DNA of 64,000 bases from Aneurinibacillus soli (GTDB lineage Bacteria; Bacillota; Bacilli; Aneurinibacillales; Aneurinibacillaceae), in assembly GCF_002355375.1 (NCBI RefSeq), contig NZ_AP017312.1, positions 3,055,001-3,119,000 on the forward strand, given 5' to 3'. The notes beneath the pieces were generated by a model. It was not told where the DNA came from. It was given only the letters and a program-made list of their open reading frames with translations, and did no database searches. The stretch's first letter is position 1; every line of letters starts with the position of its first letter. Below, one piece after another: positions 23,081-63,195 of this stretch. Made by a program: the position numbers and the translations under genes.

Positions 23081-23150
23081 AGCAGGCAGCAGGAGTCGAA
23101 CCTGCGTAACAGATTAAAAGGCTGCCGTTCTACCGTTGAACTATACCTGC
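23081..23150 (-). tRNA. tRNA-Lys (UUU), phage-borne
   Basis: A full cloverleaf folds on the minus strand. The acceptor arm GCAGGTA/TGCCTGC has one G-T pair, the D stem is GTTC/GAAC and the anticodon loop CTTTTAA has anticodon UUU. The T arm is GCAGG-TTCGACT-CCTGC. Weak points are a C-U mismatch closing the anticodon stem, a three-base variable loop, and a T at the discriminator position with no encoded CCA. These suggest a phage tRNA that has drifted, possibly still functional. Confidence 0.7.
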
Positions 23151-25043: not shown

Positions 25044-25080
25044 TGCTAAAATCAAATAAAAAACGCTCAGATAATCCCGA
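25044..25080 (-). terminator. Terminator after ArpU-like gene
   Basis: On the minus strand CGCTC and GAGCG arms are followed by six T residues, starting within the last codons of the ArpU-like gene. It would end the early transcript before the HEPN-like gene. Confidence 0.6.
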
Positions 25081-25444
25081 GCGCTTTTGCAATGTTTGTA
25101 ATAGCAGCGTTTTTCTTTTTGTAGTACTTCCACCGCTTAATCCCTAATCCTATGAAAATATCGATGTCATTCGTCTCTACCGAACTGAGATACTTCTCTT
25201 CAATGATCTTTCGCTCTATGGTGTCCAGACCTTCCTGTAGTGCGCGCTCGATCTGCCGGAACTTTAACTCACTCCGCTTCTCGCTTTCTTCATCCTGGCT
25301 TAATGTCGGGAACAGATCGATGACGCCAGCCACCTCCCGCTCCGTTTTATTCTTCTGCTGTACCTTCAGTACCCGATACTCATTAAGTAACTCGATAACC
25401 TCATCTTGTACACATTTTCCGAGTTGCTCTGCCGCCATGTTCAT
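25067..25444 (-). CDS. ArpU-like phage transcriptional regulator
   Basis: This 125-residue helical protein matches the ArpU/YqaQ type of late-gene regulators. Near its middle it has QIERALQEGLDTIERKIIEEKYL, resembling a sigma-like region, and it ends in IGLGIKRWKYYKKKNAAITNIAKALGII, a helix-turn-helix. In related phages such proteins control late transcription. It is the last gene of the early minus-strand operon, consistent with a middle-to-late switch role. Confidence 0.7.
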   Translation of the reverse strand: MNMAAEQLGKCVQDEVIELLNEYRVLKVQQKNKTEREVAGVIDLFPTLSQDEESEKRSELKFRQIERALQEGLDTIERKIIEEKYLSSVETNDIDIFIGLGIKRWKYYKKKNAAITNIAKALGII

Positions 25445-25455
25445 CCGCTCCCCTT

Positions 25456-25707
25456 TTAATCGTTGTAGTTGTGCCTTGTCTGTCTGATCGCTCCGTTTAC
25501 CCTCTGCCAGCTTCCACCGCCGCGCATTATTCGCTCAATCTCCATCAGTTCGCGTTCCCGAGCGCTTATCCGGATCGGTGCTGGCAGATTATCTTTTTTA
25601 GGTACCTGTGTAACTGCAACTGGATTTCTCCTCCGGCGTCTCCGCTTCACTTTTTGTGCCAGCAGCTTCTTTTTTTCATCACTTAGATAGTCACTGAACT
25701 TTGGCAT
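25456..25707 (-). CDS. Small basic phage protein behind attenuator-like leader
   Basis: This 83-residue protein has start ATG 25705-25707 with AGGAGG upstream. Residues 18-27 are a strongly basic run (VKRRRRRRNP) and the C-terminus is ERELMEIERIMRGGGSWQRVNGAIRQTR. The basic cluster could bind nucleic acid. It lies directly behind the predicted tandem-hairpin and terminator leader, so expression may depend on antitermination. No family is recognised. Confidence 0.6.
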   Translation of the reverse strand: MPKFSDYLSDEKKKLLAQKVKRRRRRRNPVAVTQVPKKDNLPAPIRISARERELMEIERIMRGGGSWQRVNGAIRQTRHNYND

Positions 25708-25734
25708 CAGCCTCGCCTCCTTGAAATAAAAAAA

Positions 25735-25886
25735 GGACATCAACTGATAAGCGCTATAGCAGCTCAAATAAAGCTGGCAAGCAACTTACAAGTTGATGTC
25801 CCCTGGTTGTTCCAGTGAAACAGCAACGGCTATTTACACGCTTTTCTGTGGTATCTCCCGGTTGTTCCGGTGAGTACTGCTACCAC
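25735..25886 (-). promoter_or_regulatory. Tandem hairpin leader with competing terminator
   Basis: On the minus strand two similar structures follow each other. Unit 1 (25848-25886) has outer arms GTGGTA/TACCAC and an inner hairpin CCGG-AACAA-CCGG. Unit 2 (25792-25827) has outer arms GTTGCTG/CATCAAC with one mismatch and an inner hairpin CTGG-AACAA-CCAG. The inner stems differ but both keep pairing, while the AACAA loop is identical. An 11-bp terminator stem (25735-25745 with 25791-25801) followed by seven T residues uses the same bases as the 3' arm of unit 2. The two folds exclude each other, as in attenuators and riboswitches. Gene start and site follow directly. Confidence 0.6.
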
Positions 25887-27242: not shown

Positions 27243-28580
27243 TTACAAAGCTTCTTTCAGTGCAGCTGCAAATACCTGATTCTTACGCAGGGCCACATCC
27301 AGCTCACTACGTATCCCTTGGCACCGCTCCTTCTCTTCTGCTAGCTGCTTTTTCAATCCAGCCAACTCCTCTTCCATTTCTAAAAGCTTTCTCCTGAGTT
27401 GTTCAAGCTCTGACGCCTGCTTTTCTTCCCTTACTGCGTTGAACCATTCGTCAGAAACTTTTCTTTCACCATTCAAAATTTGTGGTTGGATACAGCTATC
27501 TTGTTGGATATAGCCATTTCCCCACTTTTGTCGCATATCATAGAGAGTAGCGACCGATATGCCATGCTTGGCTGCTATTTCTTTGTTTGTCATTCCTTGT
27601 TGGCGATAACGGCCATATTGCTCTTCCGATAGTGGCAGCACTACTCCCTGTTCTCTTTTCCAGGCATACAGTTTTGAAAATGGCGTGCCATACTTCCTTG
27701 CGATATCGTGGTCCTTATACCCATTCTCTACCAAGTTTTGATAGTCATCCACGGTAAGATCATTGAGTGTGAGAGTATGTTGGTCCTTACGTAGTGGAGG
27801 CACTACTGACACATGAGCACGTTCTTGCGCCACGTCTGTCTCCCTCCCTTTCTCACCACGTGTATAGCGCTCGAATTTCCTTTGAATCGTGGTAATCCTC
27901 TCTTGTACTTCTTTGTGTTTCATCCCCATTCTTTTCGCGATTACCCGCTCCTTCAATCCGTACATCAAGCTATTTGCAATGCTCTTTTCCGTTTCATCCA
28001 GTAAGTCCATGAATTCTTCTACCGCTACGGTGCTATAATCCCCCTCACGTCCAACCGTATCCGAAAGGATATATCCGTCTTCTACTTGTCCCTGTTTGAC
28101 TGGAGCATCCATGGAGAGAACCTTACCTGACTTTATGATCGATAGCGCTTCTTCTACGTATGTCTGCTTTAGTCCGATTTTCTCTACAACCTCATCTACA
28201 GAACAATCTTGTAAGTCCTGTTTGTATATGCGAATCACAGCCTGCTTGGTTTCCCACCGGTATCTAAAATCAACGTTTGTTTGTGTCATGCCAGTCTTGA
28301 TCGCACCCGAGATACACCGATATGCGTAGGCTTCAAAATTCTGAGTCTCTGTTTTGTTTGAATCGAAGCGATCATATGCCTTGATCAGACCTTCGTAAGC
28401 AAAGCTTACAATGTCGTCCAAGTCCATTCCTTTGGTTTTAGCTGCTGCCAAATACTTGCGACCGATCTTCTCGGCTAGTGGTAACGACTTTTCGATGAAT
28501 TGATCCCGTGTCCCGAATTGGGCAAGGTGTGGATTGTCCATTCGGGCTACTAACTGTTCAGTTGCACTCATTTTCAACAC
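27243..28580 (-). CDS. Phage sigma-70-like factor with two extra HTH domains
   Basis: Residues 25-110 match sigma region 2 (LAEKIGRKYLAAAKTKGMDLDDIVSFAYEGLIKAYDRFDSNK, then FEAYAYRCISGAIK) and residues 190-245 look like region 4 (LLDETEKSIANSLMYGLKERVIAKRMGMKHKEVQERI). Two further HTH-like units follow: NLVENGYKDHDIARKYGTPFSKLYAW and YRQQGMTNKEIAAKHGISVATLYDM. The end is a coiled coil (residues 395-435). At 445 residues it is much longer than ordinary phage sigma factors. It probably directs host RNA polymerase to phage promoters. GTG at 28580 and ATG nine nt later are both possible starts. Confidence 0.75.
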   Translation of the reverse strand: MLKMSATEQLVARMDNPHLAQFGTRDQFIEKSLPLAEKIGRKYLAAAKTKGMDLDDIVSFAYEGLIKAYDRFDSNKTETQNFEAYAYRCISGAIKTGMTQTNVDFRYRWETKQAVIRIYKQDLQDCSVDEVVEKIGLKQTYVEEALSIIKSGKVLSMDAPVKQGQVEDGYILSDTVGREGDYSTVAVEEFMDLLDETEKSIANSLMYGLKERVIAKRMGMKHKEVQERITTIQRKFERYTRGEKGRETDVAQERAHVSVVPPLRKDQHTLTLNDLTVDDYQNLVENGYKDHDIARKYGTPFSKLYAWKREQGVVLPLSEEQYGRYRQQGMTNKEIAAKHGISVATLYDMRQKWGNGYIQQDSCIQPQILNGERKVSDEWFNAVREEKQASELEQLRRKLLEMEEELAGLKKQLAEEKERCQGIRSELDVALRKNQVFAAALKEAL

Positions 28581-62888: not shown

Positions 62889-63195
62889 AATAAAAAGATC
62901 GCCCCTATCACATTCACGATAGGGGCGATCTTTACCGCGGTACCACCCTAATTACAGACAAACATCGTCTACTTCTTTGTTTTGATAACGATCATATGAC
63001 CGTCTTTCCCTTCATAAAAGAATGTTCCTTTACTACGAAAAAGATGCTCCGGGATCGAAATTCATGTTTACCTGTGTACTGATTTTCACCATCCATCAGC
63101 TCTCTAAAACAGGGAGATAAACACTACTAAAAACCCTTCCTAGCTTATTTATCTTGAGTTGTATATAAAACTAATTATTATATCCATAAACTATA
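62889..63195 (-). promoter_or_regulatory. T-box riboswitch, Phe specifier
   Basis: The minus strand carries the complete T-box: the stem I hallmark AGAGAGCTGATGG, the specifier loop ATGAATTTCGATCCCGG, the T-box sequence AGGGTGGTACCGCGG (62935-62949), and a terminator with perfect 16-bp arms (62894-62909 with 62918-62933) and a T run. The bases at the specifier position are TTT or TTC (63057-63060), both Phe. The T of TGGT would pair with a tRNA discriminator A. Uncharged tRNA-Phe would turn on the permease. Confidence 0.85.

Follow-up and report, generated by a model that had tools for sequence, protein, structure and literature searches.

Among the described antitermination systems, those closest to the RNA element presented here act through small hairpins. 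The antiterminators LicT, SacY and GlcT use RAT hairpins, while the ANTAR proteins EutV, NasR and AmiR have as targets dual hairpins with six-base loops that bear A1 and G4. Among phages, HK022 possesses put, which consists of two adjacent hairpins near an early promoter and is not known to need a phage protein, and lambda uses nut, with a boxA next to a boxB hairpin, for processive antitermination with the N protein. At the locus described here, the second of two hairpin units shares an arm with a strong terminator, and we think, with somewhat more confidence than doubt, that this unit makes up, together with the terminator, a protein-dependent antiterminator/terminator switch which gates the gene of a late activator and which the small phage protein XtrA probably operates.

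XtrA was named from PBSX, and according to sections of two papers the PBSX repressor Xre has XkdB-XkdC-XkdD-XtrA as its regulon (PMC4374763) and Xpf controls late genes (PMC8347963). Both fit the late-gene gating proposed here; within these sections an RNA element is not mentioned, and the word "terminator" occurs in neither. A term search of PMC13123087 gave no occurrences, and a literature search with subscription papers and preprints outside its range found no description of the element.

The element and its surroundings in the prophage

The window (the whole stretch of DNA that was analysed, 64 kb) contains a prophage, and the genes near the element as well as the element itself are read on the minus strand (Table 1). 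In this direction, a DnaC-like loader, a sigma-like factor, two small ORFs and the XtrA-like gene precede the element, which is followed on its 3' side by the genes for a small basic protein and an ArpU-family regulator and, further on, by HNH and the small and large terminase genes, the large terminase being assigned by eye from its ORF only. The XtrA-like protein scores 21.5 bits against PF17356 (PBSX_XtrA), which is under the cut-off of 29.7, and a canonical relative reaches 89.5 bits. The basic protein gave no family match in profile scans, but it resembles the product of the first gene behind the element in a second locus of the same genome (L342, C1:2653500-2663000; 37% identity, E 1e-5) and in a related locus, L164 (41%, E 2e-6). 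The next start codon lies 20 nt past the U-tract, no promoter-like site is listed on the minus strand from 25900 to 25700, and the ArpU-family gene is presumed to be the one under the control of the element. A phage gene at 27243-28580 (445 aa) has matches to sigma-70 region 2 and additional helix-turn-helix matches, and a tRNA gene (23081-23150, minus strand, 60.1 bits in Rfam) lies inside the prophage, with the late-regulator region on one side and the HNH and terminase genes on the other.

Table 1. Features of the element and its neighbouring genes in the window
Feature	Position	Strand	Description or basis
XtrA-like gene, 66 aa	25880..26080	-	phrog_1551 E 3.3e-10; candidate antiterminator protein
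Unit 1 hairpin	25848..25886	-	GUGGUA..CUC-A-CCGG-AACAA-CCGG-GAG..UACCAC
Unit 2, antiterminator-type hairpin	25792..25827	-	GUUG-C-UGUUUC-A-CUGG-AACAA-CCAG-GGGACA-U-CAAC
Intrinsic terminator stem-loop	25735..25801	-	base GGACAUCAACU/AGUUGAUGUCC, irregular upper stem
Terminator U-tract, seven U	25728..25734	-	sequence; just beyond the range of the earlier note
Small basic protein, 83 aa, first gene past the terminator	25456..25707	-	similarity to L342 and L164 proteins
ArpU-family late transcription regulator	25067..25444	-	TIGR01637 56.9 bits (cut-off 43.1); phrog_248 E 1.7e-17

An earlier note on this DNA had proposed two units with equal AACAA loops and inner stems that differ in sequence and yet pair, and this is indeed what is found on the minus strand. 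The outer stem that was thought to enclose both units is not seen; each unit has an outer stem of its own. In both units an A is bulged directly 5' of the inner stem, and CCGG/CCGG in unit 1 versus CUGG/CCAG in unit 2 represents a compensatory difference between the copies. Sites that match CYGGAACAACCRG with at most one mismatch occur only twice in the 64 kb, namely in units 1 and 2 (expected 0.16; none of 100 shuffles reached two), and the motif common to both units is not due to chance.

Unit 1 overlaps the stop codon of the XtrA-like gene and has no terminator of its own, while unit 2 starts 52 nt past that stop codon. As the earlier note had stated, a terminator followed by seven T uses bases of the 3' arm of unit 2: positions 25801-25792 serve both as this arm of the outer stem and as the 5' arm of the terminator, which renders the antiterminator hairpin and the terminator mutually exclusive. 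The base stem of the terminator has 11 bp, and the stable stem followed by the U-tract is that of an intrinsic terminator, which a simple terminator scan missed because of its long loop. Relative to dinucleotide shuffles, the folding z-scores are -3.31 for unit 1, -2.54 for unit 2 and -7.00 for the terminator (25728-25800). With two extra bases on each side, the terminator folds with -35.9 kcal/mol, and upon co-folding in the window it prevails over the outer stem of unit 2.

A riboswitch had been considered as well. Rfam matches in the whole window are limited to a T-box leader (62918-63150, minus strand, 141.3 bits) and the tRNA, both elsewhere than the element; in the element region itself only sub-threshold miRNA and snoRNA matches appear, the best being mir-6 with 23.2 bits against a required 58, and in 39 related loci, most of which contain the element, no family was found at any element. 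A metabolite riboswitch was rejected for want of support: the element has no Rfam match, and its constant partner is a small phage protein gene. The element belongs to an RNA family that appears to be undescribed.

Relatives and conservation of the structure

The DNA of the region did not resemble any phage record, tblastn of the window XtrA-like and 83-aa proteins against phages gave no match, and a protein-based viral scan with the window XtrA gave two matches, of which L151 looked unrelated. The two-unit query GGAACAACC-gap-GGAACAACC matched at least 119 viral stretches and 16 of 299 genomes and revealed no further recognisable case of the motif. Many of the matches listed were repeats of the coding-sequence kind, and the 60 best stem extensions over 150 loci included none resembling the window. 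As the DNA and two-unit searches gave nothing useful, relatives were reached through the neighbouring XtrA gene instead. The corresponding family phrog_1551 occurs in 43 of the 299 genomes of the class, and a phrog_1551 search, which addresses the gene family only, also found it in Bacillus subtilis 168. Behind many phrog_1551 loci a common design is found, namely a small hairpin with a bulge on the 5' side, a short GC-rich inner stem and a usually A-rich small loop, and in such loci the outer 3' arm of the hairpin is at the same time the 5' arm of a strong terminator. In locus L185 of a related genome, a c-di-GMP-I riboswitch (1542-1627, 72.4 bits) lies near a phrog_1551 match.

From 14 relatives, with the window excluded and only the inner stem and the terminator set as paired, the covariance model R1 was built. 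It matches the element of the window at 25729-25824 with 34.3 bits (E 3e-9), it does not match unit 1, and it finds matches in 62 of the 299 class genomes, including two more copies in the window's own genome. In L342, one of these, the element lies between an XtrA-like ORF (recognised by eye; profile E 0.011) and the small basic protein that resembles the 83-aa protein of the window and is followed by an ArpU-like ORF, so that the layout is that of the window. The other copy (L341, C1:2617000-2626000) is accompanied by a weak XtrA-like ORF (E 0.0016), and apart from this no obvious phage genes are found among the listed ORFs. Two named phages, Aeribacillus phage AP45 and Bacillus phage PBP180, carry the element behind XtrA and directly before a 'positive control' factor. 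Additional R1 matches lie just upstream of the XtrA by which a locus was fetched (L499 5917, L500 5641, L506 5641, L516 5715, L556 5899); the one in L516 lies downstream of another XtrA, its own at 1461-1658.

The two-unit, put-like motif suggested earlier finds no support as the conserved feature, since the relatives bear one hairpin fused to the terminator. The attenuator layout, in which an antiterminator hairpin stands against a terminator, is in turn backed by the related phages, and the conservation that had been asked of the loop and the pairing is found: relatives retain the A-rich loop, the A beside the inner stem and the inner pairing. What is conserved is hairpin 2 plus the terminator, and hairpin 1 looks like an additional local copy, which is probably a second, putative binding hairpin peculiar to the phage of the window.

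The inner stem covaries strongly. In two alignments of R1 matches, A2 and A4, which retain some wrong-strand or cut matches, it is paired in 94% and 99% of the cells, with changes on both sides in four of four and three of four pairs, respectively. Its types include CCAG/CUGG, CUGG/CCAG, UCAG/CUGA, CCUG/CAGG, CCGG/CCGG, CCAA/UUGG and CUAG/CUAG, and the loops in the relatives are mostly four- or five-base and A-rich. The outer stem is paired in 78% (A2) and 91% (A4) of the cells. In the main group, the common arm AGGAC is nearly invariant, and 122 of 2000 arm shuffles (plus strand, gap-free rows) matched the observed outer-stem pairing, so covariation of this stem within the canonical group is not significant. 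As AGGAC hardly varies, the case for the outer stem rests on the comparison between diverged lineages, across which the stem is retained and its arms differ jointly (GUCC/GGAC, GCCU/GGGC and UGCU/GGCA). The terminator structure is kept while its upper part varies.

The nested-hairpin layout is present in 55 of 68 element terminators; of the remaining terminators in these loci, 13 of 506 show it. The 68 are the distinct element terminators that were recognised by the script for terminators and include a few weak R1 matches. Among 45 diverse elements, which are the distinct ones from 48 hits taken in, 34 show the layout, compared with a mean of 3.4 and a maximum of 7 in 100 shuffles; 11 of the 45 fall outside this grammar, and among the 34 that fit, L341 does so in the wrong place. 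If the 5' 20 nt are swapped between loci, on average still 26.9 of the 45 fit (maximum 32 in 200 swaps) compared to the 34 observed, which means that conservation explains much of the fit and true co-variation a smaller share. In terms of energy, 87 elements have median values of -8.7 kcal/mol for the hairpin and -24.2 kcal/mol for the terminator, and a rough energy sum favours the terminator state by a median of about 5.5 kcal/mol, a difference that protein binding could make up for.

Association with XtrA, operon position and cargo genes

The element is tightly linked to XtrA. Viral contigs were searched with an XtrA protein profile, and of the best 80 of 197 relatives (L479-L558), 79 have an R1 element on the XtrA strand at 113-5050 nt downstream (median 1052); in the sole locus without an element, only 1.7 kb are available on that side. 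Most of the loci behind the profile had been fetched by the element pattern, and for this reason, and because the best 80 of 197 were taken, the 79/80 is valid for canonical XtrA. As a check of independence, 53 of the 80 XtrA come from outside the source loci of the profile, and 52 of these have the element; moreover, 40 of the 79 elements fail the pattern that was used for fetching loci. In the reverse direction, 64 unfiltered pattern matches in viruses have 3 kb or more of upstream sequence; 60 of these have XtrA upstream on the same strand, and the remaining four, which have no terminator, are chance matches; a terminator filter, which dropped 24 loci, gives 49 of 49 with the same upstream requirement. 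For named genomes with at least 2.5 kb upstream, XtrA was found, among the matches listed, for 34 of 37 with a terminator and for 4 of 49 without one.

In the genomes, 56 phrog_1551 places chosen without regard to the element have a downstream R1 match on the same strand at 38 and none at 18, where the 38 comprise 29 listed R1 hits within 8 kb downstream and nine weaker matches beside XtrA (E <= 0.01; L175, L176, L178, L180, L181, L187, L188, L189 and L190). Conversely, no phrog_1551 match is nearby for 24 of 58 R1 hits, which were taken from 103 R1 places (all those of at least 28.7 bits except a 29.6-bit place in G024, together with three lower-scoring places beside XtrA); some of the 24 have weak or by-eye XtrA-like ORFs, and others are apparently non-phage.

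In the viral loci, the last ORF ahead of the element is co-directional in 76 of 79, and its stop codon precedes the element start by a median of 1 nt (between -34 and +27 nt in 75 of 77 loci). This proximity would suit a translation-coupled attenuator, in which the hairpin has its 5' arm covered by a ribosome at the stop codon, so that the terminator is favoured, and in which the hairpin forms and transcription goes on if the ribosome is missing. Such a coupling leaves the tight XtrA link, the loop preference and the conserved A unexplained and fits poorly with the 52 nt between the XtrA stop codon and unit 2 in the window, and we regard it as very improbable.

Past the terminator, the next start codon was found in 77 of 79 loci at a median of 25 nt, in 57 of the 79 within 35 nt. 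A stricter ribosome-site rule gives a start in 72 of 79 (median 29.5 nt, 39 within 40 nt and 19 beyond 100 nt), the longer distances being partly explained by this rule skipping earlier starts. In 65 of 79 loci, the next three ORFs include a late regulator from one of three families; such a regulator is of the ArpU family in the window and Ltr- or Xpf-like elsewhere. Given the short gap between terminator and start, the lack of a listed promoter and the late regulator among the next ORFs, expression of the late activator probably comes from read-through of the element's terminator. It is conceivable that an ordinary intrinsic terminator merely ends the early operon here and that the hairpin is incidental or only stabilises the 3' end of the RNA, as the strong stem with its U-tract, which in the viral loci comes right behind a stop codon, could suggest. 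However, this would not account for a conserved hairpin with compensatory changes, for a layout that other terminators of the same loci rarely have, for the XtrA link, or for a next gene that begins so close behind, and we think that it is quite unlikely.

At least one ORF lies between XtrA and the element in 77 of 79 viral loci, which amounts to 132 proteins in 81 clusters. These cargo ORFs were chosen mechanically, and 71 of them, one per BLAST cluster and at least 70 aa long, were scanned. The cargo is highly diverse; some of the 71 representatives match the defence models RmrA/RmrT, PDC-M11A, PDC-S25 and PDC-S36, and domains seen among them are SIR2_2, putAbiC, DndB, Mrr, RelA_SpoT and Panacea, whereby the best families are listed with one or two members each and do not constitute a count of defence proteins. 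The interval between XtrA and the element in L479-L558 is a candidate place for new defence systems in Bacillota prophages. The diversity of the cargo, and arrays of several cassettes that may each end in a copy of the element, could also be explained by a cassette boundary at the DNA level, the conserved sequence then being a recombination site for cargo exchange with RNA folding as a secondary matter. This explanation seems highly improbable to us in view of the co-directional gene ahead of nearly every element, the compensatory changes in the stem, and a terminator that keeps its structure and varies in its upper part.

An array of this kind is found in L340 (G098, C1:384500-395500), where five R1-matched elements lie in about 6.5 kb between XtrA and an ArpU-like ORF, every element closing one or two cargo ORFs in a cassette-like manner. 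The array is relevant for another alternative, in which antitermination is processive, of the lambda N at nut or HK022 put kind, with the hairpin as its loading site, and the modified polymerase ignores both this terminator and later ones in the late operon. The place ahead of the late operon and a hairpin with bulge and A-rich loop beside a terminator would agree with it. Yet hairpin and terminator have bases in common, and the individual copies that the five R1-matched terminators in L340 each carry would be needless if the action were processive; one copy per terminator fits better with local action than with a single loading event, which makes processive loading unlikely in our opinion.

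The proposed switch and its comparison with known systems

The protein that works the proposed terminator switch is most likely XtrA. Its candidacy follows from its being the constant partner of the element while the cargo and the late regulator vary. In Pfam, XtrA proteins match PF17356 PBSX_XtrA only and no RNA-binding antiterminator (CAT) domain. The AlphaFold model is confidently all-beta (pLDDT 91.3); a fold search in the PDB gave no match, and the best one in predicted viral structures was a 50-residue protein without a name (E 0.19). In the window XtrA, the conserved basic C-terminal stretch is missing. The anatomy of the element, its conservation, the covariation of the inner stem, the link to XtrA and the place in the operon follow from the computation. 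Regulated read-through and binding by XtrA, both of which we infer, would combine to an RNA switch with two states where the early/middle operon of the phage ends. When the polymerase leaves xtrA, the small hairpin with outer stem, bulged A, inner stem and A-rich loop would form first. An unbound hairpin would lose to the terminator, which is more stable and uses the outer 3' arm of the hairpin as its own 5' arm, and transcription would stop ahead of the late activator gene. If the hairpin is held by a phage protein, likeliest the small all-beta XtrA from the gene upstream on the same strand, the terminator would be unable to form its base, and read-through into the late activator gene would lead to late expression.

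Such a role would give a function to XtrA and would explain late-gene gating in a large group of Bacillota phages that uses three kinds of late activator. As a more tentative extension, which we would not yet wager on, XtrA could be the first of a new family of RNA-binding antiterminators from phages, with a 'permissive terminator' as its target that caps the cargo, often defence genes, inserted ahead of the late activator and behind xtrA. Expression of the cargo would then be possible in the lysogen while the terminators shield the late activator, and upon induction XtrA would open the terminators one by one and the phage would enter its late stage. If true, this would explain how the lytic operon of PBSX-type phages can contain a slot for the insertion of defence genes without loss of late control. 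The covariance model and a one-protein, one-RNA hypothesis are provided herewith, and a compact protein-controlled terminator may be useful as a genetic part.

With respect to the known systems, the proposed switch shares with the RAT hairpins of LicT, SacY and GlcT a small imperfect hairpin that overlaps the 5' arm of a terminator, so that a hairpin-holding protein would block the terminator. It differs in its protein, as XtrA matches PF17356 and not the CAT domain, in the single 5'-side bulge and the A-rich loop, and in that it serves phage late-gene control instead of sugar use. The ANTAR targets resemble the window in its two hairpins with equal loops, the second of which competes with the terminator. 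The loops of the window are however five-base AACAA and not of the six-base form with A1 and G4, the R1 unit is one hairpin, and no ANTAR domain was found among ten neighbouring proteins scanned. With the phage antitermination hairpins of HK022 put and lambda N/nut, the element has a bulge and a small loop in common, but its hairpin lies inside a terminator, behind XtrA or cargo and ahead of a late regulator, and in contrast to put its conserved unit is one hairpin plus terminator. A likeness in gene order exists to the xtrA-xpf region of PBSX, as PBP180 shows the order xtrA, element, late sigma-like activator and terminase. While it carries the full defining features of none of the tested families, the element most likely acts like the known overlapping antiterminators.
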